The notes beneath the pieces were generated by a model that worked only from the letters and a program-made list of their open reading frames with translations, did not search any database and was not told the DNA's origin. Of a DNA stretch of 64,000 bases, positions 14,269 to 28,368 are shown in pieces. Numbering within the stretch: position 1 is the first letter of the stretch; each line of letters begins with the position of its first letter. Source of the DNA: Sulfuricurvum sp. (GTDB lineage Bacteria; Campylobacterota; Campylobacteria; Campylobacterales; Sulfurimonadaceae); assembly GCA_028718525.1 (NCBI GenBank), contig JAQULP010000014.1, forward strand, positions 1-64,000. Direction: 5' to 3'. The position numbers were made by a program, and so were the translations under genes.

Positions 14269-15606
14269 TTAAAAATCAAATATATCGTCTAAATCAACCG
14301 CATCACCGGCATGTTCTTCCATGGTTAGAATACTGCCGATCGTTTGGGTATTGCTGATTATGGTGTCATCCATATAATTGACACTCGGAGCACCTTCTTC
14401 AAAAATCAGCCGTATCCATCCCATTAAATCCCGACTGAATGCGGCACACAAAGGCCCCAATGCGGAAGATTTTTCAATAAATAGCTGAATATGCTCGCGG
14501 ATATCAATCGATAGCGTACTCAACGCACGCCCAATAGTATAGCTTTCCGAATAAATCGATGCAATCTTGCCGATTCGATCCAGATAAGCACCGATTTCAT
14601 CAACCTCATCGACTTGGATATCCCCGCTTCCGACTACCAATAAAAGCGAATTGAGTTTGGCGATATAGGCTTTAATATCCCCTAAGTCTTCCTCTTCCAT
14701 ATAAGCGTATACTTGGTTCTCCGTTTTGTCGGTTATTTCAAAGGCAACGGTAGAAGAGCCTTCTGAGAGTGCTTCCGGCATCGTCGATTTCACAACGTTT
14801 TCGTGATGCGTTTCATGGTTTGCAACGGTTTTATGAGATGTATTCTCAAGTTTCAACCGGATAGAAATTTTATCTTCATCGTACATATAATCTGTCAATA
14901 CAGGATTTTTTTGGAGGGTAAGCCGAATAAATTTGGGATCAAGCGCCGTGAGACCGGCAAGGGTAAAATAGGTATACTCCGGCGACTCTTCTACCCAGAT
15001 CTGTTGTTCAAGCTTAAATTTTAATCCAATCGATCCGATGGTGTACAAGGTACGGACCGCATCACTGAGAAGGGCACAAGCGTTTTGCGAATTCAAAAGA
15101 TAATATTCCCAAAACTCCGCCAAATCATTGTCATTTTCAATCCGAAACAAGAGCTTTCGGGAGAAAATGCTGCGGCTATAAAGGTTATAGGCCTCTTTAT
15201 TAAGCGATTTATTCCTGCGGGCTTCGCATAGGGAAAAATAGTTGGCCAATCGGGCGGTAAAGATATCAACATTAATCGGTTTGGCAATATAATCTTCCGC
15301 ACCCGCATGCAGGATCTGGCGTTGGCGTTCCGTATCGTCTACGGCGGAAACCGCAACAATAATGACTTTGCTATCTTCAGTCCGTATTCGGCGCGTCGCT
15401 TCGATCCCATCCATTTCCGGCATCATAATATCCATTAAAATCAAGTCATACGCTTCATGGGCTGCCTGACTAACAGCCTCTATCCCGTTAGTGGCTTCAT
15501 CAATTTTTAACTTGACGGATTTGTTTTCCTCTTCATAGGTTTCAAGTACTGCCCGCAGCAGCATCCGATTATTGGCATTATCGTCGACGATTAATATTTT
15601 TTTCAT
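14269..15606 (-). CDS. Response regulator with uncharacterised C-terminal domain
   Basis: N-terminal receiver (KKILIVDDNANNR...DLILMDIMMPEMDG...AVSA...YIAKPI); C-terminal region of about 300 aa with homology to the 30408-31379 product; acidic-aromatic tail VDLDDIFDF. Confidence 0.85.
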   Translation of the reverse strand: MKKILIVDDNANNRMLLRAVLETYEEENKSVKLKIDEATNGIEAVSQAAHEAYDLILMDIMMPEMDGIEATRRIRTEDSKVIIVAVSAVDDTERQRQILHAGAEDYIAKPINVDIFTARLANYFSLCEARRNKSLNKEAYNLYSRSIFSRKLLFRIENDNDLAEFWEYYLLNSQNACALLSDAVRTLYTIGSIGLKFKLEQQIWVEESPEYTYFTLAGLTALDPKFIRLTLQKNPVLTDYMYDEDKISIRLKLENTSHKTVANHETHHENVVKSTMPEALSEGSSTVAFEITDKTENQVYAYMEEEDLGDIKAYIAKLNSLLLVVGSGDIQVDEVDEIGAYLDRIGKIASIYSESYTIGRALSTLSIDIREHIQLFIEKSSALGPLCAAFSRDLMGWIRLIFEEGAPSVNYMDDTIISNTQTIGSILTMEEHAGDAVDLDDIFDF

Positions 15607-15619
15607 TGCCTATTCTCCA

Positions 15620-16363
15620 TTATCCTAGTCTTTCTAAGAGTTGTTGCGTAAAACGCCGATAATCTTCAAGCCCTTTAGAACGTCCCTCTCCCAGAACTAC
15701 CGGGGAAGCCGATTCAAATTGTTTCGCCAACCGAATATCAACACCGATCGGCAAAAAGAGTTTCTCTTCACCGAATTGCGTTTTCACTTTTTCAAGCGCA
15801 TCCCGATGTTCAGGGATATGGGGATTGTACATTACCGGTAAAATCCCGACTTCGGCAATATCCCGCCCAATTTGAAGAGCGTTTTGATAAATCGCCCTCA
15901 CCATTTGCCCTACCGCAACCGTCCCGAGATGATGTGGGACAAAAGGGATCACAACCGCATCGGCAACCTCAAGCGAATTTTTCAGCAATGCATCAAATGT
16001 CGGTGGGGTATCAATAATACAGTAATCAAAAAATCCTTCAATCATCTCACGGCGAAAGCGATTTTTCAAAACCCCGCGTAAATCCCCGTACTCATAAACG
16101 TCGAAAAATTCCTGTGCCGGAGCCAGTGTCAGCTGCTCATGCACGGTAGGGATAAACGTTTCACTCAATGTCTTTCCCAAAAAAATCGAGTGGACACCGT
16201 TATCCCTGGAGCCTTCAGCCCCCACCCCTATAGAAGCATGGGCCTGGGTATCAAAATCAATCAAGAGAACCGATCCGTATTTGGCCAATTCACAGGCGAG
16301 ATTCACCGCTGTCGTTGTTTTGGCCGATCCCCCCTTGCGATTACTGACTACGATCGTTTTCAC
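15620..16363 (-). CDS. ParA/MinD-family ATPase
   Basis: Deviant Walker A KTIVVSNRKGGSAKTTTAVNLA, Walker A' LLIDFDTQAHAS, IIDTPPTFD; likely GTG start at 16363 (ORF track starts at 16411). Confidence 0.9.
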   Translation of the reverse strand: MKTIVVSNRKGGSAKTTTAVNLACELAKYGSVLLIDFDTQAHASIGVGAEGSRDNGVHSIFLGKTLSETFIPTVHEQLTLAPAQEFFDVYEYGDLRGVLKNRFRREMIEGFFDYCIIDTPPTFDALLKNSLEVADAVVIPFVPHHLGTVAVGQMVRAIYQNALQIGRDIAEVGILPVMYNPHIPEHRDALEKVKTQFGEEKLFLPIGVDIRLAKQFESASPVVLGEGRSKGLEDYRRFTQQLLERLG

Positions 16364-16373
16364 AAAAGAGCTC

Positions 16374-17150
16374 TCATACGTTCTCCTCACCCGGGAAAAC
16401 AATAGAATCAAGGACGATAACCAATTTCTGATTCAATTCGACAATCCCTCGCGTGCGCAACTGCAAACTAAGCGTCTGGGTACGCTCATACTGTTTAATC
16501 TGCCCCTCTTCCAAAACGACAATATCGTCAATCGTATCGACTTTAATCCCAAACGGCTCATTGCCGTTTTGATAAATGAGCATTTTTTGCATTTGCGATG
16601 ATATCTCATCCGCTTTTTCCATCATCTCATTCAAACAGTGTGTCGTTTGGGTATATATGGCCCCAATTTCATCCTGAAGCATCAGCTGAGCCCGATTCGG
16701 GTCCGTACGATGAATTTCTAAAATCTTTTTTCCCGTTTCATGAAGAGCGGCATGAATAGGCATCAAACGACGCAATATCGCCAATACTTGCGGATCATGC
16801 GTCGTATAACTATCCAGCCACTTTCCCAAACGGCAGGCATGCGGATCGGTAGTCAGTCTAAACTGCCCCGTTGTAAAGACCGCCTCACTAAGAGTTTCCA
16901 CCCAAATTTCATGGTCCCTTTTCACCTGTTTAAAGATAGAAGCTATCTCCTCTTCGTGCGTGTTCAAATTCGCAATTTTACGGAAATTGACCACTTTGAT
17001 ACTGGCATTCTCGTAAACACTCATCCCCTCCACTTTAGGGTGTGCATTCGCCATAGGGGTTATTTTCGGTATCGGCAAGATCCTTATTACCGATTCTACA
17101 GGAACGGCATACGCGTTCGAACCTACCGTAAAGATAATGTAATCACGCAC
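16374..17150 (-). CDS. CheW-type adaptor with inserted CZB zinc-binding domain (copy 1)
   Basis: CheW N-half (DYIIFTVGSNAYAVPVESVIRILPIP), CZB motif HACRLGKWL with downstream PIHAALHETG, then CheW C-half (FGIKVDTIDDIVVLEEGQI); GTG at 17150 aligns with the start of the paralogue and overlaps the upstream stop. Confidence 0.85.
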   Translation of the reverse strand: MRDYIIFTVGSNAYAVPVESVIRILPIPKITPMANAHPKVEGMSVYENASIKVVNFRKIANLNTHEEEIASIFKQVKRDHEIWVETLSEAVFTTGQFRLTTDPHACRLGKWLDSYTTHDPQVLAILRRLMPIHAALHETGKKILEIHRTDPNRAQLMLQDEIGAIYTQTTHCLNEMMEKADEISSQMQKMLIYQNGNEPFGIKVDTIDDIVVLEEGQIKQYERTQTLSLQLRTRGIVELNQKLVIVLDSIVFPGEENV

Positions 17151-17412
17151 AAAAGTTCTCGTTTGTTTCAAATCCTTCACATACTTTTTGAAACGGTTTT
17201 ATTTCACTGGGGTATAAAAACTCCCCATCATACATTTTAACGTAAGATAAAATCATCTGTAAAATACCCAAGTGGATATCATCGCTCATACTCATATCAA
17301 AGAGTACCGATTCAGGTGCTTTAGCCTGCAAATAGTCACGAAGAGTTACAATATCATCTTCATACACTACCCCCGAAAATACGACCCTCTCATTTTGCAG
17401 TTCCATTCCCAT
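17143..17412 (-). CDS. Small STAS-like protein (89 aa)
   Basis: Alternating beta/alpha pattern (VVFSGVVYEDDIVTLRDYLQA...VLFDMSMSDDIHLGILQMILSY) between two CheW-CZB genes. Confidence 0.55.
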   Translation of the reverse strand: MGMELQNERVVFSGVVYEDDIVTLRDYLQAKAPESVLFDMSMSDDIHLGILQMILSYVKMYDGEFLYPSEIKPFQKVCEGFETNENFCA

Positions 17413-17413
17413 G

Positions 17414-18193
17414 TTACGCTACCTCCCGTATCGGCAAAGATACTGTTTTGATTACATTAACCAGCTTTTCGCCAATTTCGACCACTCCTTCAATTTCAAG
17501 AAATGATCCGATTTGGTTCAGGTCATCTACATGCTTAAGCGAAGCGAGATCAATTCTGGCCATATCCTCAATCGTGTCGACAATAATCGCAAAAAAGCTC
17601 TCTTCTTTACGATAAATCAACAATTTTTGCAGATGCGCGGCAATATCTCCGCTTAAATGGATCATTTTTTCGATCTGCCCCATGGTCACATGAAAAATTT
17701 GGCTAATATCGCGCTCAACGATATGAAGCGCTTTTTCCGGATCGGTTTGGCGCAGTTCCAAAGCTACTTTTCCGATCTCATGCAATTGCGCATGTATCGG
17801 ACGCAAGACTTTCAACACCGCCAAAACTTCCGAATCATGCGTACTGTAATTATCCAGCCATTTTCCGAGCCGACATGCATGGGGATCGGTTGTCAGGGTA
17901 AAAGGGCTCCCCTCTCGAAGCGCTTTTTTAAGGCTCTCAACCCAAAACTGATGATCAATCTTCACCTGTTCAAAAATACGGTTCAGCTCTTCTTGATACG
18001 GAGGAAGATCGGTCATTTTTCGAAAACTGACTACTTTTGTCACCCGTTTCTCATACGACATCATCCCTTCAATATAAGGATGGGCATTGGGAATCGTCGT
18101 CAATGAAGGGATTTGAATAATACGCTCAACCCATGCTACCTCGATAGCATAATAGTTGTTGGATACGGTAAAAACGATGTAATCATTGCTCAT
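17414..18193 (-). CDS. CheW-type adaptor with inserted CZB zinc-binding domain (copy 2)
   Basis: Paralogue of 16374-17150: DYIVFTVSNNYYAIEVAWVERIIQIPS..HACRLGKWLDNYSTHD..PIHAQLHEIG..FFAIIVDTIEDMARI. Confidence 0.88.
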   Translation of the reverse strand: MSNDYIVFTVSNNYYAIEVAWVERIIQIPSLTTIPNAHPYIEGMMSYEKRVTKVVSFRKMTDLPPYQEELNRIFEQVKIDHQFWVESLKKALREGSPFTLTTDPHACRLGKWLDNYSTHDSEVLAVLKVLRPIHAQLHEIGKVALELRQTDPEKALHIVERDISQIFHVTMGQIEKMIHLSGDIAAHLQKLLIYRKEESFFAIIVDTIEDMARIDLASLKHVDDLNQIGSFLEIEGVVEIGEKLVNVIKTVSLPIREVA

Positions 18194-20985
18194 CAGCTTG
18201 CCGCCTTATATTCAGATTTAAGCGCATGCGATATCTCCAACAGTCCCAACGGATCTATCGCCATAATAATCTGACCGTTCCCCAGCAAAGCGGTACCGCT
18301 GAAAATCGGATGATTTTCCATAATCCCCTCCAACGGTTTTTGAACAACGTCGAGCTGTCCGAGCAGTTCATTGACAACCACGGCCAAACGGTTCCCTTTA
18401 ATACTCAACACCACTACCGGAAGCGATTTGCCTTCCAACGATTCTCGATCAAGCATAGAACGGATAAAGAGAAGCGGTATCACCTCTCCCCGTATGTAAA
18501 TGAACGGTTCATTATGGAGATATTCAATCTTGGACGGCATAATTTTTACCGTTTCCGATACGCTGTCCATTGGGAATCCGTAGTGAACATTGCTCATCGA
18601 TACGTGAAGCAGCGAAGTCACCGCCAAAGATACCGGAATCGAAAGGGTGATCGTCGTCCCTTTGTTTGCGACAGTCTTGATGCGTATTGTACCGCCAAAA
18701 TTTTCTATCGATTTTTTGACAACGTCCATGCCTACGCCCCGTCCACTGTATTCGCTGATCGTTTCGGCCGTAGATAGCCCCGGAAGCATCACCATAGAGG
18801 CTTTCTCATCATCACTCATCGCATCGATTTGATCAAGGGTCAGAAGATTTTTTTCCAATACTTTCTGAACGACACGATCAATATTAATCCCGGCTCCGTC
18901 ATCTTTAATCTCGATGATAATCTTATCACTTTGCGCATACGCTTTTAAGGTAATAAGCCCTTCAGGATCTTTCCCTTTTTGCGCACGGATATCCGGGGAT
19001 TCGATCCCGTGATCCAGTGAGTTTCTCATAATATGAATCATCGGATCGGCCAACATCTCGATCATATTTTTATCGAGTTTGGTATCTCCCCCATCCATGG
19101 TAAGATTCACTTTTTTACCTAGATTTTTAGAAATATCCCGGACCAGTTTAGGATAACGGTCAAAAACATAGGAGATCGGTAACATCCGCATCGACATGAT
19201 CAAATCCTGCAACTGTTCGGCTAAGCGATTAATAAACGTATATTTCTCCATAATAGCACGGCGTATCCCCTCCGAGTTCATGGTTTGAACCCCATCGGCA
19301 AGGTACGGCAGAGAATTTTTTGCAACGAGCAATTCACCGACAATATTCATCAGATTGTCAATCGACTCCTGCTCAATCTTAACCGTTTTTCCTATAACGC
19401 TTTTTTTCGATCCGCTATTTTGGTTATCACTGTTTTTCGCTGCCGTTTCACTCGGTTCTTTCACGATTTCGCTAACCGGTTCAACGATACGGGGAGAAGA
19501 GATTGCTGCTGCCGTTTCCGGAACTGTTTCGTGAACACTGCTACTTAACGGAGCAGAATCGATTAAAAGTGTTTCAACCACTGGCTCCGATTCTTCAGGT
19601 ACAAGCATCAGTGGTTCTCTGCCCAAATAGCGCAAAATCCATGCTGTAATCTCCGCACGGCTAGCAAATGTTGTCGGCATCTCCGAGATAAAACTGCGAA
19701 TGTGATTTTGCAAAATTGCATTCACCCGTTCAACAACCGTCTCCTCCTCAACCACTTCCAATGCCATCAACTGCTGTTCCAGTAACGCTTTCATCTGTGC
19801 ATGAGCGGCATCATCCAATACTTTTTGCTCGATGGAGATATTTTCTTCTGCGGCGGACACCTCTTCAACCTTTGCAGCACTCGTTTCTGCCCTGACATCG
19901 GATGGGTCAAAAACAAATGATTCCCCTTTTGGAAGATGGCGGAAAAACGGTTCAAGTTTTGCGATATCCTCATCACCGATTAGATCCAAAAGATTTTGCA
20001 AACGTCGAAGCTGCATACTTTGCAGTGTCTCTTTACCGATTAGCTGGAGTGATTTGCCGACCTTGTCCGCAATGGCATCTTTATCGTGCAAAGCGATGGG
20101 GTTTAGAATTTCATGATAGAGTTCCTTGAGGATATCCAGTTCATGATGACGCTCTCCATCGCTAATCCTTAACAAGGTTGCTATATCCAGCGGGTATAAC
20201 AGCAATTCATCCATAAAATTGTACAAAGCATCGCTGATTTGATCATAGGTCGCATAAACAAATGCTGCCATCTGCATTTTCAAAAGCAATCCGTCGGGAT
20301 CTTCCGTTCCCGATAAAACGGCTACGGCACCGTCACGGCTGATGCATGAGTGGATACCGATCAGATTGTCCCCGAGTAGACTGAGAGCGTACAACGGATC
20401 GTTTCCATAAAGCATACACGATTCATCGACATCAAAAACGATCCCATACAGCTGCGGAACACGGCATATCTCTTCCGTGATCTCTCCCACCTCAAACGGA
20501 AGCGTTGCCTTCAGTGTTTTCAAAAAGTTCAGCGGTAGATTAACAATCCGATTGATATCTCCGATCAGGGAGAATGGGCAGCTCCACTCCTCAATACTGA
20601 TATGAGATTTCCCCATGAGGGCACTTAGCTCTTCGGCGATCTGTTCGATCCGTGTTTCATCCGGTTCGACGATATCGCCACTCTCTTCCGCTGCTTCAAT
20701 CAGGTTCATGACTTCATCAAATGCGTTATAAAGGGATTCAATCATCTCTTCACGAAATGCGAGTTTACCGGATCGGAGCATGTCCAGTAAATCTTCCGCA
20801 TGATGAGTAATTGTTTTAACCGCTTCAAATCCGACAATGCCCGATCCCCCCTTAAGGGTATGAGCAGCTCGGAAAACCGCATTAAGCAATTCCGGGTCAT
20901 CCCCTCCGATACTTTCAATATTTTGATCAATATAAGCAAGATTTTCTCTCGCTTCCAGTAAAAACTGTTCTAAAAGCGGGTTCAT
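18193..20985 (-). CDS. cheA: Chemotaxis histidine kinase CheA
   Basis: Hpt (FRAAHTLKGGSGIVGFEAV), dimerisation/HATPase (RNSLDHGIESPDIR, DDGAGINIDRV, GRGVGMDVVKKSIENFGG), C-terminal CheW domain. Confidence 0.95.
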   Translation of the reverse strand: MNPLLEQFLLEARENLAYIDQNIESIGGDDPELLNAVFRAAHTLKGGSGIVGFEAVKTITHHAEDLLDMLRSGKLAFREEMIESLYNAFDEVMNLIEAAEESGDIVEPDETRIEQIAEELSALMGKSHISIEEWSCPFSLIGDINRIVNLPLNFLKTLKATLPFEVGEITEEICRVPQLYGIVFDVDESCMLYGNDPLYALSLLGDNLIGIHSCISRDGAVAVLSGTEDPDGLLLKMQMAAFVYATYDQISDALYNFMDELLLYPLDIATLLRISDGERHHELDILKELYHEILNPIALHDKDAIADKVGKSLQLIGKETLQSMQLRRLQNLLDLIGDEDIAKLEPFFRHLPKGESFVFDPSDVRAETSAAKVEEVSAAEENISIEQKVLDDAAHAQMKALLEQQLMALEVVEEETVVERVNAILQNHIRSFISEMPTTFASRAEITAWILRYLGREPLMLVPEESEPVVETLLIDSAPLSSSVHETVPETAAAISSPRIVEPVSEIVKEPSETAAKNSDNQNSGSKKSVIGKTVKIEQESIDNLMNIVGELLVAKNSLPYLADGVQTMNSEGIRRAIMEKYTFINRLAEQLQDLIMSMRMLPISYVFDRYPKLVRDISKNLGKKVNLTMDGGDTKLDKNMIEMLADPMIHIMRNSLDHGIESPDIRAQKGKDPEGLITLKAYAQSDKIIIEIKDDGAGINIDRVVQKVLEKNLLTLDQIDAMSDDEKASMVMLPGLSTAETISEYSGRGVGMDVVKKSIENFGGTIRIKTVANKGTTITLSIPVSLAVTSLLHVSMSNVHYGFPMDSVSETVKIMPSKIEYLHNEPFIYIRGEVIPLLFIRSMLDRESLEGKSLPVVVLSIKGNRLAVVVNELLGQLDVVQKPLEGIMENHPIFSGTALLGNGQIIMAIDPLGLLEISHALKSEYKAAS

Positions 20986-21365
20986 ACATTACCTCCGGGA
21001 TACTCAGCTAAAAGGAGTTGTAAATACCCTTTGAGAGCGTCGGGTTTAATCGGTTTGGTCTCAAAAATATTAGCACCGACTCGGAACGCTTCTACCTTAT
21101 CGGTCCGTTCTTCCTGAGTGGTGATCATAATGATAGGAACATGGCGTCGGGAAGGCTGCTTACGTAATTCACTGACAAACGAATAGCCATCCATTATCGG
21201 CATATTGACATCCACCAAATAGAGGTCTACCGCATTGTCTAAACTTTTTTCAAGTGCTTCCATGCCGTTTTCAGCTTCCAGCACTTCAACTCCCATATCA
21301 CGTAAAATCGATCCGTGATAACTCCGTACTGTTTTTGAATCATCGACTACCATTACCGTTGCCAT
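20982..21365 (-). CDS. CheY-like response regulator
   Basis: Single receiver: VMVVDDSKTVRSY, LYLVDVNMPIMDGY, MITTQ, ETKPIKP. Confidence 0.92.
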   Translation of the reverse strand: MATVMVVDDSKTVRSYHGSILRDMGVEVLEAENGMEALEKSLDNAVDLYLVDVNMPIMDGYSFVSELRKQPSRRHVPIIMITTQEERTDKVEAFRVGANIFETKPIKPDALKGYLQLLLAEYPGGNV

Positions 21366-21376
21366 ATTGCCTGCTC

Positions 21377-21766
21377 CTAAAAAAACTCTATTCCGTCATC
21401 ATCATCATGATGAAGTTTTCCGCCGAATGCGGAACGTCTCTGCTCTGCCCGTTCTAATGTAGCATTAAGTTTCGCATGCATTTTATCGATATTTTCGATG
21501 ACACTTGCGTCATTACCCTCAACAACCTGAACAAAAGACCGCAAATGTTCCTGTACACTCTCTATCGCTTCAATCGTAGCGCTAAGTTGCTGCGCAATAA
21601 TATCCTGATACTGCATCGATTCCACTGTCTCATCATCCAACTGTAATCCGTTGCTCTGAATAAACCGTGCAATACGCATATGGGTTTCATTCGTTAATTC
21701 GATAGTCTCTTTTTCAACCGACTTAATATGCTCAAGCAATCCGTCGAGTGTAGTAAGAAATTGCAT
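21377..21766 (-). CDS. Short CheZ-like protein phosphatase (candidate)
   Basis: 129 aa helical protein; MQYQDIIAQQL resembles the CheZ active-site helix QDFQDLTGQVI; C-terminal acidic-aromatic tail DDDDGIEFF; located between two cheY genes. Confidence 0.65.
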   Translation of the reverse strand: MQFLTTLDGLLEHIKSVEKETIELTNETHMRIARFIQSNGLQLDDETVESMQYQDIIAQQLSATIEAIESVQEHLRSFVQVVEGNDASVIENIDKMHAKLNATLERAEQRRSAFGGKLHHDDDDGIEFF

Positions 21767-21775
21767 CCTGTCTCC

Positions 21776-22147
21776 CTACGCAAGCCGAAGGACCCTGGCA
21801 ATTGCCTGTTTCAACTGCGCAGGATTAAAAGGCTTAACAATCCATCCGGTCAAACCAAGCGCCTTCCCTTGTTGTTTCAGTTCATCCCGTGTTTCCGTTG
21901 TCAGCATCAATACCGGGGTTCGTGAAGTCGTTGAAAGCTTCCGCAACTCTTGTAAAAACTCAAATCCGTTCATAATCGGCATATTCATATCGGTAATAAT
22001 TAAATCAGGGGTGATCCCGGAGCGGATATCGGCAAGCGCATCCAATGCGCTTAAATACTGTTTTACCTCTATCGGCATCGAATCCGTTACCATTCGGGTT
22101 GAGGCTAAGGCTGTTTCACTATCGTCGACGAAAATAACTAAAGGCAT
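21776..22147 (-). CDS. CheY-like response regulator
   Basis: Single receiver: VIFVDDSETALAS, LIITDMNMPIMNGFEF, MLTTET, WIVKPFNP. Confidence 0.92.
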   Translation of the reverse strand: MPLVIFVDDSETALASTRMVTDSMPIEVKQYLSALDALADIRSGITPDLIITDMNMPIMNGFEFLQELRKLSTTSRTPVLMLTTETRDELKQQGKALGLTGWIVKPFNPAQLKQAIARVLRLA

Positions 22148-22156
22148 ATGGTTCTC

Positions 22157-22987
22157 CTATTTTTGATAAATTAAAGTGGAATCTATTTTTTTGGCTTTGA
22201 ACACGGAAGTAATCCGGCTCATGTATTCGGCATGTCCCAGTAAGACATACCCTTCGGGGTTGAGCATATCATAAAACGTCATTGCTACCTCTTTACGGCT
22301 TGCGTCATCAAAATAGATCAACATATTCCGCGAAAAGATTACATCGAATTTTCCAAGCTGACGCATTTGAGCCTTATCGAATACGTTCGCTACTTTGAAA
22401 TCGACCGTCCCGAGCAAATCACTCGATATATCAAACCCCAATGTACGGCTCTTAAACCATTTGGTAAGAATCGGTTTGGGTATCGCATGTACGGATCGTT
22501 CAGAAAATTTCCCCGCTTTGGCTTTTTCGATTACCGTCGAATCAATATCGATTCCGACGATTTCGATATCCCGTTCCTCAACGATTTTCCCCTCTTCCAA
22601 AATGTGCAAAACGATGGAATACGGTTCTTCACCCGTTGAACTCGGTGCGGATAAAATTCTTAACGGTAAATGCTTCGGGCGCTTCGCATGAAGTTCCGGA
22701 AGCAACCGCTCAACCAAAACCTCAAACTGCTCTTTTTCACGAAAGAAATAAGTCTCATTGACGGTAATGGCATTTACAAGTGCCTGAAATTCACTGCCGT
22801 CTTTGTCTTCAAAACGGAGGACATAAAAATATTTGCGAAACGAATCGACACCGATTTTGCTGGCACGTGCATCAATATACTTGGCCAGTTTTTCAAAATG
22901 TTTATCCGCTTCAAGAAAAATCCCGGTTTTACGGTATACATATTCGCCCATTTTTTGAAAATCGACGTCAGATAGAAGATAGACCAT
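22157..22987 (-). CDS. cheR: CheR-type MCP glutamate methyltransferase
   Basis: NETYFFREKEQFEVL, LRILSAPSSTGEEPYSI, DVIFSRNMLIYFD, GYVLLGHAE. Confidence 0.95.
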   Translation of the reverse strand: MVYLLSDVDFQKMGEYVYRKTGIFLEADKHFEKLAKYIDARASKIGVDSFRKYFYVLRFEDKDGSEFQALVNAITVNETYFFREKEQFEVLVERLLPELHAKRPKHLPLRILSAPSSTGEEPYSIVLHILEEGKIVEERDIEIVGIDIDSTVIEKAKAGKFSERSVHAIPKPILTKWFKSRTLGFDISSDLLGTVDFKVANVFDKAQMRQLGKFDVIFSRNMLIYFDDASRKEVAMTFYDMLNPEGYVLLGHAEYMSRITSVFKAKKIDSTLIYQK

Positions 22988-22990
22988 TCC

Positions 22991-23617
22991 CTACCCCCTG
23001 ATCGCCCGAATGGCATTATCGACGGCAAAAGCAACATACGGATCGTCAAATCTCCCTTTGATCGATTCGAGCAATGGAATATCCTGAGGTTCACCGATCT
23101 CCGCCATATAATCCACTGCCGTCATCGCCACGTTGACATCGTGCTCATTTTCAAGCAGTTCGACTAACATTTCCCGAGATTCGGGAAAATTTACATCGCC
23201 CAAAACGTTAATCGCAAATATCCTCAGATCACGGTCGTTCCCGATTAGAAATTTAACGATGTAATATTTAATGGCATCACCGTAACTTTGCAGAGTAGTT
23301 ATCCCTAAATTTCGGATATAGGCATTACGTACTTTGAGAAGTTCCATAACCGATTCGATCGGAGCCCGCTTTCGATCCATTTTTGACAGTTGAGATGCAA
23401 TATTGACGGCCATATCCTTATAGATAAAAGGGTTATCTACTAAAAGTCGGACCAGCATTTTCCCACCACCGTCAAACTCAGCCATCTGTTCAATCGCATA
23501 ACTTTGCTTATCAAACTCTCCGTCATTTGCTTTATAGTATTCGTATGCCTCTTCAAGCGCTGCAAATTCCGGTAATTCATCAACAACGGGAGCTGTATGT
23601 TTCTTCATTAATGCCAT
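22991..23617 (-). CDS. HEAT-repeat protein
   Basis: Repeated helical pairs with VRNAYIRNLGITTLQSYG, LRIFAINVLGDV, NVAMTAVDYMAEIGEP. Confidence 0.75.
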   Translation of the reverse strand: MALMKKHTAPVVDELPEFAALEEAYEYYKANDGEFDKQSYAIEQMAEFDGGGKMLVRLLVDNPFIYKDMAVNIASQLSKMDRKRAPIESVMELLKVRNAYIRNLGITTLQSYGDAIKYYIVKFLIGNDRDLRIFAINVLGDVNFPESREMLVELLENEHDVNVAMTAVDYMAEIGEPQDIPLLESIKGRFDDPYVAFAVDNAIRAIRG

Positions 23618-23626
23618 CTAATTCTC

Positions 23627-24673
23627 CTATCGTAGGGCTGTAAGCGTTTTTAGGATTTTGGGAAACGGAAGCTGTTGCATAACCCCGCCGCGGTCATATG
23701 CCTCTTTTGGCATTCCGTAAACCGTAGCCGTCTCTTCACTCTCTCCGATTGTAAATCCGCCTGCTTTTTTAATAGCAACCATTCCGTCCGCTCCGTCATC
23801 ACCGATACCGGTTAATAAAACCGCATTAATCTGTTCGCCTCGAAAAACTTTAAGAGCGCTCAGAAACATCTCATCAACACTCGGTTGAAAAAATCGGCCG
23901 TTTTTCTCTTTTTCTTCCCGAATAACGTATTTTCCCGATACTTTTTTTGCAAAATGCAGATGTACTCCCCCTTTTGCAACGTAGATACATCCATTGACCA
24001 ATTCCATATTATTTTTGGCTTCAAGAACAGGAAGAGGACTTTTTCGATCCAGGCGTGTCGCAAATGCAGCGGTAAACTGTTCGGGCATATGCTGTACGAT
24101 ACATACCGGAAAAGGGAAATTCTCAGGTAAAGAGGTACAAATTTGTTCAATTAAACCGGGGCCTCCGGTTGAAGCACCGATTAAAAGAACCTTTTTTATC
24201 TCTCCATTCGACGTTTTAACGACTTTTTCAGTGGCTGCGGAAACGGGTGTACTGCTACGTCTTGCTACCGATTTGAGTCGTCGAGCCGGTATTCTGCTTA
24301 GGGTTTTTACTTTATGCAAAATGTCGGCGCGGTTTTCCTCACGCCCGACATTCATCGTTCCGGGTTTGGCAATATAATCAACCGCACCCAGATCCAACGC
24401 TTCCATCGTAATATTGGCACTCTCTGTCGTCAATGAACTGATCATTAATATAGGCGTCGGGCGCTGCGCCATAATTTTCTCTACGGCACTTAACCCGTCC
24501 ATGACCGGCATATTGATATCCATCGTAATGACGTCGTATTGATTAGCAACCGCTTTTTCAACCGCTTCGGCACCGTTTCGTGCCGTTTCAATCTCAAAAT
24601 CAAGCTCACTTATAATTTCACTCAGCTGCTTACGAACCAGGGCTGAGTCATCAGCGATCAATACTTTTTTCAT
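23627..24673 (-). CDS. cheB: CheB protein-glutamate methylesterase with receiver domain
   Basis: Receiver (VLIADDSALVRKQL, DVITMDINMPVMDG) plus methylesterase (LLIGASTGGPGLIEQIC, VQHMPEQFTAAFATRLD, LLTGIGDDGADGM). Confidence 0.96.
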   Translation of the reverse strand: MKKVLIADDSALVRKQLSEIISELDFEIETARNGAEAVEKAVANQYDVITMDINMPVMDGLSAVEKIMAQRPTPILMISSLTTESANITMEALDLGAVDYIAKPGTMNVGREENRADILHKVKTLSRIPARRLKSVARRSSTPVSAATEKVVKTSNGEIKKVLLIGASTGGPGLIEQICTSLPENFPFPVCIVQHMPEQFTAAFATRLDRKSPLPVLEAKNNMELVNGCIYVAKGGVHLHFAKKVSGKYVIREEKEKNGRFFQPSVDEMFLSALKVFRGEQINAVLLTGIGDDGADGMVAIKKAGGFTIGESEETATVYGMPKEAYDRGGVMQQLPFPKILKTLTALR

Positions 24674-26046
24674 TTTCCCTCTTTCCCGTATGCCCGTTCT
24701 AAATCAAGGAGCAATACAAGCCTTTTCCCCTCATTAAAATGGAGAACATGTGAATAAAGCCCATAAACATCACGTTCTTCATGTAATTCGTGTTGATACA
24801 CGGCCAATACATCACTGACGCCATCAACAAAGAACCCCATCTTCCCCTGAGGAGTATCACAGATAATAATTTTTTGCTCCGCTTCAGAAGCAGGAGGAAC
24901 ATGAAGCTGGCGGTATAATGAACCGATCGTAATAATTTGCCCTCGGATATTCACTACCCCTTCCAGGGTTTCGGGAGATTCCGCAATCGGTGTTATCGGT
25001 GTTACGTCAATGATTTCCGCTACCCGTTCAATCGCAATGGCATACTCTTCACTCCCCAGTTTAAAGACAACCACTTCACACACAACATCCGATTTCTCCG
25101 TTACCGTTGAGGACGCTTCCGAACTTATAATCAATTCATCGTATTGGTTCATCACCTCATCAATCGTTTCCCTGCCGATCAACGAAATTAAATTTTCTCC
25201 GTCATGGATCACTCCAGCAAGGTTGGAGTCGTCTCTCGCCTCTGTAAAGCGTTCAATCTGTGCATCGGCGTATTCTTTAATATCAATAATCTCATCGATC
25301 ATCAATCCGACGACTTTCGGACCCAGCTGAGTTATCAATATCCGATTTTTATCACTCGCATCGGAATGAAACCCGTAACGCATACGCAAATCGATGACCA
25401 ATACAAGTTCATCACGCAGTGACATCATCCCGATAACTTCATCATCAAGGCCGCTAATCGGTGTAATTGCACGGGATGAGCCGAGAATTTCACGCAAATA
25501 ATCGATACTTAATCCATAAGATTCGCTTCCCATCCGGAAAATAAGGTAGCGACTGTTGGTATCGTTACGTTCTGATATGATTTTTTCTACGCTGTTTTTT
25601 TCGTTAACCGTTTTGGATTCAACTTGAATCTTATGAATCAAACTTAAAAGTTTCTCCACGTCCACAATTTGAATTAATTCGTCTTCATGGTGATAAATCG
25701 CCATGATGGAATCATACGGATTATGTATGGTCTCAAGCGCTTCGGGGATAATAATCACGGAAGAGACTACTTCCGAAACAACCAGGCCGATAGTGTCCCA
25801 TGCACCGCTTAAGGTCAAAATCCGGCTTTGCTGAGAGAAGATATCGACTTTGTTCATCCCTAACAAAAAGGGCATATCCACTGCCGTGATAATATTTCCC
25901 CCTACTGCACATACGCCGTATACCTCTGCCGGGCTCAAAACAAGCGGCGTAATTTCAGGTATCCGAAGGATCTGCCCTATTAGATAGGTAGGTATGCCGA
26001 AGCTAACTTTATCGTGCTGAACGATTAAAATTTCTTCGATCTTCAT
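24670..26046 (-). CDS. Triple CheW-domain scaffold protein
   Basis: Three successive CheW-like domains (EEILIVQHDKVSFGIP; RYLIFRMGSESYGLSI; VVVFKLGSEEYAIAI). Confidence 0.88.
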   Translation of the reverse strand: MKIEEILIVQHDKVSFGIPTYLIGQILRIPEITPLVLSPAEVYGVCAVGGNIITAVDMPFLLGMNKVDIFSQQSRILTLSGAWDTIGLVVSEVVSSVIIIPEALETIHNPYDSIMAIYHHEDELIQIVDVEKLLSLIHKIQVESKTVNEKNSVEKIISERNDTNSRYLIFRMGSESYGLSIDYLREILGSSRAITPISGLDDEVIGMMSLRDELVLVIDLRMRYGFHSDASDKNRILITQLGPKVVGLMIDEIIDIKEYADAQIERFTEARDDSNLAGVIHDGENLISLIGRETIDEVMNQYDELIISSEASSTVTEKSDVVCEVVVFKLGSEEYAIAIERVAEIIDVTPITPIAESPETLEGVVNIRGQIITIGSLYRQLHVPPASEAEQKIIICDTPQGKMGFFVDGVSDVLAVYQHELHEERDVYGLYSHVLHFNEGKRLVLLLDLERAYGKEGK

Positions 26047-26051
26047 CCATT

Positions 26052-27938
26052 TCAGCCTTGTTGAAGTTCATCCGCCATCACGGCAAGTTCTTCAACCCCT
26101 TCCCCGATATGCCCAACCGTCTCAATGATCAATTCACTCGCTTTTCGTGATTCCATTGCATTTCGAGCAGAGAGTTCAACCGCCTTTTGAATTTCACTCA
26201 CACCGATAAGTCCCTGATTAAGCCCTTCGATATTTTGATCGTTTATCGATTTAAGCCCTGTAAACCGGTCCAAAAGGTCAATAAGCATCGTCGTAATTTT
26301 TTCAATCTCATTAATTAAGACGGTAATCTGCTCTTTCTCCATCTCTTGATTGCCTAATAATTTAAGCCAATCGGTACGGACCGTATCGATCTCCGCATTC
26401 ATCGATTCAATAGTGTCGTTGATTTTATCGGTATTGGATTCGGAATCTTTGGCCAAATTACGGATATCGGCGCTGACCACCGCAAAACCTTTACCGAAAT
26501 CTCCGGCACGTGCCGCTTCGATCGAACCGCTAATGGCCAGCATATTTAATTGAATGATGCTATTGGAAATACTGCCTACCGTTTTATCGACGTTACGGGT
26601 CTCTTTCACGATTACATCCAGTTCGCTGCTTGCACTGCTCCCCTCGTTGATGGAGGCGCTAAAATCATTTCCAATACCGCTCATTTGCGCTTTAACGTCT
26701 CCGAAAGAAACTTTTAACAAATCAAAATTGCGTCGCGCAATTTCAATAAGTTTATTGATATCTTTAGAAGCCGAAAGACCGTTCTCAAAGAGCTCTTTAT
26801 TCATTAATGCGCTCTGATTTGTCGCTTGTGAAGCTGCTTCGATCTGATTCAAAGCACTGGTCACTTCTTTGAGTGAGCTTTGAATATCTTCCATGGAAGA
26901 GCTGATGGCATCGGCCAATGCGGCAATCTCTTCCGCTGATTTCATGGTATCGGTCGAATATTTGAGCTCCTCAGAGAGAGTATTGAGCTCTTTAATATCT
27001 TCTTCCGTCTGAACCAATGAGTTGGATTGAATCTCAATACCGTTGAGTGTTTTTTCTACCGAACGGGCAATGTTTGCCGATGCATCGGCAATATCTTTGG
27101 AACCGTCGTTAATTTGGTTGATGTAGTGGCTAAGATTTTGCGTATACGTATTCATATTACGGGCAGCTTCGACCGAATATACCGCAATTTTCGTCAACTC
27201 TTCCATTTTAAAACTCAGAGCCGTACCGCGCCCTCCCGTTTTTTCAATGATATCGGTTGTATTAACAATACTTTTAATGATTTTATCAATGCTTTCTTGA
27301 ATTTTATTCACGAGTTTGGAGATGAAATCGGCATTTTTTTCCGATTCTCCGGCAAGCGCACGCGTTTCATCGGCTACAACAGCGAACCCTTTTCCATGTT
27401 CTTTTGCCCGGCTGGCTTCGATTGCCGCATTGAGCGCAAGGAGATTGGTTTGATCAGCGATTTTAGCAATAAATCCGACCGCTTCACCGATATTTTCGGA
27501 TGAAGCCTTGAGCTCTTCAGATTTTTTTGAAGAGGTTTTCGCGACGTTTACCGCACCGGTCATACGGGAAACCGAGGCATTAATCGTTCCGACCGCACTC
27601 ATAATGTTGTCTCCGGTTACCAGTGTAGAGGAGATAACCGTATCGATCGTTGATCCCATTCGACCGATATTGGAGTTGATTGAACGGACATTTTTTAATG
27701 CCTGCTCACTTGCACCGCTGTTCTCCTCGGCTGCAGTAGCAATTTGCTCCATCGAACTTTTCAGCTGTTCGATAGCACTGACACTCTCTTGAGCATTATC
27801 AAGAATGGTCGTTGCCACACCGGCAATGCTTTCCGAAATTTGCTGTTGTTTGGCCAGAGTGCGTGATCTGCGTTTCTCTGCACCTTGTGCCGCGGATACA
27901 ACCGGGGATACGTCGCTTCGTTTAACTAATGCCATCAT
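26052..27938 (-). CDS. Cytoplasmic methyl-accepting chemotaxis protein with two signalling hairpins
   Basis: No TM segment or obvious sensor domain; hairpin 1 [37 protein letters not shown]; hairpin 2 [33 protein letters not shown]. Confidence 0.9.
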
Positions 27939-27945
27939 TCTCTCC

Positions 27946-28368
27946 TTAATCTAGCGTTGCGTACAACGCTTCGGCTTTTTTAATATCTTCACGCGAAGGC
28001 TTTACACGGATGGATACGTATTTAATTTTTCCGTTTTTATCGGTAGAACGCAATACCGTGGCATAAACCCAGTAATATCCCCCCTCTTTACGGGCATTTT
28101 TGACGTAACCCGTCCAAAAACCTTTACTTTGCACATCATCCCATAATGATCGGAAAGCAGCATGAGGCATATCGGGATGACGCACAACGTTATGAGGTTG
28201 TCCGATCAAATCTTCCCGTTTCCATCCGGCAATTTTCAAAAAAGAATCACTGGCATACGTCACAATCCCTTTTTCATCCGTTTCAGACAATAAATACAAA
28301 TCATTGTATAGTACTTCCCCATCATCCAAAAAGGTGAGACCCTCTATTTTTTCATCAGCATTGCTCAT
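27946..28368 (-). CDS. Aer/CetB-like PAS domain protein
   Basis: Aer-type [73 protein letters not shown] (ORF reads IVTYASDSF). Confidence 0.88.

Follow-up and report, generated by a model that had tools for sequence, protein, structure and literature searches.

The window, the whole 64,000-nucleotide stretch of Sulfuricurvum sp. DNA analyzed here, comes from a draft genome of 1.94 Mb (83% complete) and carries on its minus strand a chemosensory gene cluster in which cheA is followed by two genes for CheW-like proteins that are interrupted by a CZB zinc-binding domain. The features of the cluster, in the order in which the genes are read and with the evidence for each in parentheses, are:

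27946..28368, minus strand: stand-alone PAS protein, 140 aa, directly upstream of dosM (PAS_3, 2.3e-14)
26052..27938, minus strand: dosM, soluble receptor with two signaling tips and no sensor domain, an F9 marker (MCPsignal only; two tip motifs)
24670..26046, minus strand: cheW3, three CheW domains, an F9 marker (three Pfam CheW stretches, 6.9e-69)
20982..24673, minus strand: cheY, a 129-aa gene, cheY, cheR, a HEAT-repeat gene and cheB (ORFs and Pfam)
18193..20985, minus strand: cheA, with Hpt, dimerization, ATPase and CheW-like P5 domains (Pfam)
17414..18193, minus strand: protein B (slot 1), CheW with nested CZB, 259 aa (Pfam; insert-free HMM)
17630-17992, minus strand: CZB insert of B, residues ~68-188, with predicted ligands H81, C107, H134 and H138
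17143..17412, minus strand: conserved STAS-like ORF of 89 aa between the two CheW-CZB genes (STAS_2, marginal)
16374..17150, minus strand: protein A (slot 2), CheW with nested CZB, 258 aa (Pfam, CheW twice plus CZB)
16953..17150, minus strand: first CheW half of A, residues ~1-66 (insert-free CheW HMM 1-70)
16590..16952, minus strand: CZB insert of A, residues ~67-187 (Pfam CZB; ligand columns; model helices 65-186)
16911-16913, 16833-16835, 16752-16754 and 16740-16742, minus strand: predicted ligands H80, C106, H133 and H137 of A (ligand columns)
16377..16589, minus strand: second CheW half of A, residues ~188-258 (Pfam CheW profile 54-129; insert-free HMM 58-143)
15620..16411, minus strand: parA-like ATPase gene, conserved beside slot 2 (Pfam; neighborhood comparison)
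14269..15606, minus strand: receiver-domain protein, 445 aa, last of the conserved cluster (Pfam; neighborhood comparison)

Protein A probably starts at the GTG at 17150, where its relatives align at 'xxDYIxFTV', the GTG at 17180 given in the ORF list being probably too early; this start lies inside the preceding ORF, and the start of B shares one base with the end of cheA. The two proteins are 44% identical. The earlier note had described them as tandem paralogues, and the duplication stands; they are not adjacent, as the STAS-like ORF sits between them. Across the family of that ORF the best Pfam STAS_2 match has an E-value of 1.1e-4 (9 of 21 homologues at E <= 1), and six residues (E18, R25, D45, H47, Q52 and G80) are invariant in the 21 homologues. 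The 129-aa protein between the two cheY genes (21377-21766, minus strand) is helical, has no Pfam match above cut-off, and contains a QDxxxQ stretch (YQDIIAQQL) that we take to be CheZ-like.

Pfam matches CheW (PF01584) in two stretches in each protein, at 5.3e-19 in A and 8.9e-17 in B, above the curated cut-offs. The first stretch covers positions 2-65 of the 138-position profile in both, and the second half of A scores above cut-off even by itself (2.7e-5, profile 54-129), so that the two halves around the insert together cover CheW. CZB (PF13682) is matched at 4.7e-12 and 2.9e-11 (46.5 and 44 bits, against a curated cut-off of 29.4); with CheW and CZB in one polypeptide, A and B belong to the CheW-CZB subgroup. 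The original CZB paper is reportedly that of Draper et al. 2011.

That the CZB lies inside the CheW fold is best seen in related genomes, where insert-free CheW proteins of 142-152 aa (143 aa in G384 and G398; 168 aa, as called, in G004) occupy the same operon position. Three of these, run against Pfam, each gave one full-length CheW match (profile 2-128/129 of 138). An HMM of 144 positions, built from the insert-free sister CheWs alone, aligned to A at 1-70 and 58-143 and to B at 2-69 and 58-142, with the insert in between, and every one of the 37 proteins with an insert showed both halves (N-terminal ~1-70, C-terminal ~58-143) flanking it, the one weak C-terminal match being that of G057b, a paralogue outside the cluster. 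The gap between the halves is roughly 80-125 residues, mostly more than 100; among shuffled proteins, 1 in 600 gave any match. The alignment directly shows a short CheW loop replaced by the insert, at residues ~77-85 in E. coli CheW numbering, immediately ahead of strand 6. In CheW, strands 1, 2, 3, 6 and 8 bind receptors, while strands 4 and 5 and the 3-4 loop bind the kinase (PMC3737408), so the insertion site has kinase-binding strands (4-5) on one side and a receptor-binding strand (6) on the other.

These comparisons strongly support the reading that A and B each comprise an intact CheW fold broken, between strands 5 and 6, by one complete CZB of ~120 residues. The order first half of CheW, CZB, second half of CheW, proposed in the earlier note, is thus borne out by the Pfam stretches, the HMM and the insert-free orthologues, and the rival arrangement that it had offered as a refutation, a CheW complete ahead of the CZB, was not found, as about half of CheW precedes the CZB. 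A CZB appended behind a complete CheW is ruled out by the same Pfam stretches and HMM split, and an assembly artifact by the identical architecture of many independent genomes. Structure prediction, which the same note had suggested, gave the strand-helix-strand order along the chain (helices at ~65-186), although two AF2 models, each from an 8-sequence alignment, reached overall pLDDT values of 65.6 and 56.3, the CZB being predicted confidently and the CheW part poorly; the case for nesting therefore rests on the insert-free orthologues and the profiles. In Foldseek searches with the first model the best match was the CZB of DgcZ (3t9o; probability 1.00 over 119 columns, E >0.001), and the CheW structures 6s1k and 2ch4 aligned across the insert over 246-249 columns, with poor rmsd and E >0.001.

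The known 3His/1Cys ligand pattern identifies HCHH sets in both A and B, in place of the HxxxCxxG site named in the earlier note. All four ligands are present in 32 of the 37 inserts: 27 of the first 30 aligned, the exceptions being G004 (LSHY), G001 (YAQI) and G054 (L-AQ), and five of a further seven, the exceptions here being the sister pair G397 (HCQY) and G421 (YCFY). Of the 117 insert columns, just 8 are invariant across the 27 inserts with an intact site, and all four ligands are among these (chance ~1e-5, by hand calculation). The inserts with intact ligands span at least four taxonomic families. Where the ligands are lost CheW is intact, conserved residues such as Y14, R23, G42 and R57 being kept, and the insert has diverged throughout (30-43% identity to the insert consensus, vs 57-63% for the window copies), a pattern that relaxed constraint confined to those lineages would produce. 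With the ligands intact in most inserts and the CheW residues retained where they are gone, the sequences indicate that the zinc site is under selection in most lineages and has been lost separately from the adaptor.

DosM, with two signaling domains and no sensor, and a triple-CheW protein mark F9 cytoplasmic arrays (PMC9321776, PMC7534058), and both are encoded in the window. The cluster is on this gene content an F9-class (DosM/triple-CheW) cytoplasmic chemosensory system, its array being known here from genes alone. The function of F9 systems is described as unclear, and further sensory proteins must join the array (PMC9321776, PMC7534058): DosM homologues themselves have no sensors, which calls for inputs from elsewhere (PMC9321776). 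The PAS protein upstream of dosM, retained in many clusters, is a possible second sensor, with redox or oxygen input to DosM.

The gene order (dosM, cheW3, cheB, HEAT-repeat gene, cheR, cheY, 129-aa gene, cheY and cheA, then slot 1, the STAS-like gene, slot 2, parA and a response-regulator gene) is kept in most clusters compared, apart from contig ends, insertions and a few rearrangements. Slot 2 is often absent, and in several genera two CheW-CZB genes stand side by side, followed by the STAS-like gene. Two outlying genomes of other families, G206 and G454 (L128 and L129), have short cheA-dosM-CheW-CZB-cheB-cheR-cheY clusters, in which CheW-CZB seems to stand in for the triple CheW. A triple-CheW protein was sought and not found in G206 (99% complete, one contig), making CheW-CZB the only adaptor encoded with DosM there; this genome offers the best sequence evidence that the nested protein may be a working adaptor.

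CheW-CZB is uncommon in Campylobacterota: of 398 sampled genomes, 12 had some match at E <= 1e-8, and in 8 a CheW-CZB match extended over both halves. A contig scan recovered three close Sulfuricurvum loci, and a search of viral contigs and plasmids found no relatives. Small CZB-only proteins of 153 and 165 aa occur at L008 and L009, with a CTDCxFGQW motif and two Cys near the ligand position.

In a CZB tree built without Clostridial CheW-CZBs, all CheW inserts with recognizable ligands group in a single clade, apart from the 36 CZBs of receptors and other proteins (support 99/98), which rules out separate insertions in each protein and is consistent with a single insertion event. On a tree built from six proteins of the cluster (2111 columns), presence or absence of the insert must change five times and the ligands must decay four times, all forced by well-supported branches, and in a tree of the CheW part the insert-free proteins are nested among insert-bearing ones. 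A single old insertion followed by repeated losses is the most likely history; an alternative to repeated loss is exchange of alleles by recombination. Of two close sisters, G007 has lost the insert and G032 still has it (L063 10024-10467 vs L058 3460-4230). No clear excision scar was found in the DNA of this pair, in which the junction is highly diverged. Identity between the two falls sharply around it, perhaps marking a recombination patch.

Taken together, these features suggest an adaptor that carries its own sensor. A and B would be true CheW adaptors of the F9-class array, each with one CZB inserted, their CheW halves refolding around the CZB and taking a place in the CheA/CheW baseplate. 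Binding to CheA P5 and to receptor tips in the ring is predicted for both from operon context. Attached at either end with hardly any linker, the CZB would change conformation as zinc binds or leaves or as its Cys is oxidized or reduced, and so alter CheA coupling; a cytosolic zinc or redox input would then reach the array at the adaptor instead of through the sensorless DosM. The suggestion in the earlier note that zinc or oxidant binding directly alters array coupling is plausible: the F9 operon, the near-linkerless splice and the invariance of the ligands are all in keeping with it. There are precedents: oxidation of the TlpD CZB inactivates CheA (PMC6715182), and CheWS is described, in passages of PMC10653840, as a sensor-fused adaptor in rings. 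The expected signals would be zinc, thiol-reactive sulfur species or oxygen-derived oxidants; host HOCl is less expected in an environmental sulfur oxidizer. We put the chances of an array-embedded zinc- or redox-sensing adaptor in the F9 system at about even. It is a tentative proposal, with the odds leaning slightly against it, that the input of Campylobacterota F9 (DosM) systems is built into the adaptor, the nested CZB setting CheA activity by zinc or redox state and the signal entering at the baseplate. The insert or its ligands have been lost in several lineages, so any such function is dispensable, and a CheW with a 120-residue insert might be unable to fit both P5 interfaces.

A structural role is unlikely, though it deserves weight: the CZB could be a dimerization or spacer module tying two adaptors together in the baseplate (A with B, or two copies of one), zinc serving only to stabilize the fold and nothing being sensed. 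The DgcZ CZB homodimerizes via helix 1, according to passages of PMC8262984, and some inserts persist though their ligands are lost. Among 15 two-paralogue genomes, moreover, the paralogues keep or lose the CZB together (nine with both inserts intact, five with neither, and G004 with a decayed insert and an insert-free copy); this is suggestive only, the comparison comprising two independent contrasts and not being significant. Against such a role, many genomes have a single copy with the site intact, and redox reactivity in the CZBs that have been studied resides in the invariant Cys (PMC6715182). We regard as improbable the idea that CheW-CZB works outside the F9 array, for instance by joining F3 arrays or by titrating CheA, the CZB serving as a switch that controls entry: the window genome does encode other CheW, CheV and CheA proteins, and CheW3 is already in the same operon, but in most clusters the genes lie in a tight operon between cheA and parA, and CheW-CZB is the sole co-encoded adaptor in G206. 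That the CZB is tolerated baggage with no role in the adaptor, as its absence or decay in several lineages could suggest, is very improbable because the ligands are kept in most inserts, over at least four families, and the divergent inserts are those that have lost them.

For a sensing adaptor, the interest of the locus is twofold. F9 cytoplasmic arrays have a sensorless scaffold receptor and no known signal, and an adaptor-nested sensor would provide a direct input route. Adaptors with a CZB, with a ligand-decayed CZB and without one also occur at the same operon position as natural controls, and comparing these alleles bears on sensor control of the kinase by adaptors and on the splicing of a folded domain into an unbroken CheW.

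Several known systems share parts of this arrangement. The guess that CheW-CZB fusions might already be cataloged proved right: passages of Perkins et al. 2021 (mBio, PMC8262984) tally them by domain content as 1.4% of 10,140 CZB sequences, most abundant in Clostridia, and a 2023 paper mentions them again in its text; among the papers searched, the name occurs in these two alone. These passages give the subgroup, like the proteins here, CheW and CZB in one polypeptide and the 3His/1Cys set, with a post-Cys residue that is poorly conserved or Ala; in the inserts here that residue is usually one other than Ala (R, N, E or D, among others; G206 has A), and the CZB is nested and found in F9 operons of Campylobacterota. 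The F9 systems described previously (V. cholerae cluster I and Campylobacterota; PMC7534058, PMC9321776) likewise have a DosM with two signaling domains, a triple CheW, CheA, CheB, CheR and CheY, and in V. cholerae CheA and the triple CheW are described as making up the baseplate (PMC7534058), whereas the clusters here add one or two CheW(-CZB) genes after cheA, the STAS-like gene and parA. CheWS of Treponema denticola is also a CheW adaptor that carries a sensor domain in the ring, but passages of PMC10653840 place that sensor, a CheR-like SAM-binding domain for another ligand, at the C terminus and not within the fold. TlpD-like soluble receptors and DgcZ share the CZB fold and ligands but have the CZB at the terminus of a receptor or cyclase, and the inserts here form a clade separate from receptor CZBs (99/98). 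The earlier note had CZB as normally C-terminal on receptors or cyclases; in the cyclase DgcZ it is described as N-terminal in passages of PMC8262984. Those passages also report that species tend to have either CZB-GGDEF proteins or CZB receptors and not both; in contrast, the window genome has a CZB-GGDEF protein (L010, G000:C16:36021-36221) as well as CZB receptors. The text passages of PMC8262984 and of the 2023 paper, figures and data sets aside, contain no description of the nested topology, the F9 link or the series of adaptors with, without and with decayed CZBs. On the evidence of these passages, CheW-CZB fusions are already known, while their nested topology, F9 context and natural allelic series appear to be new.
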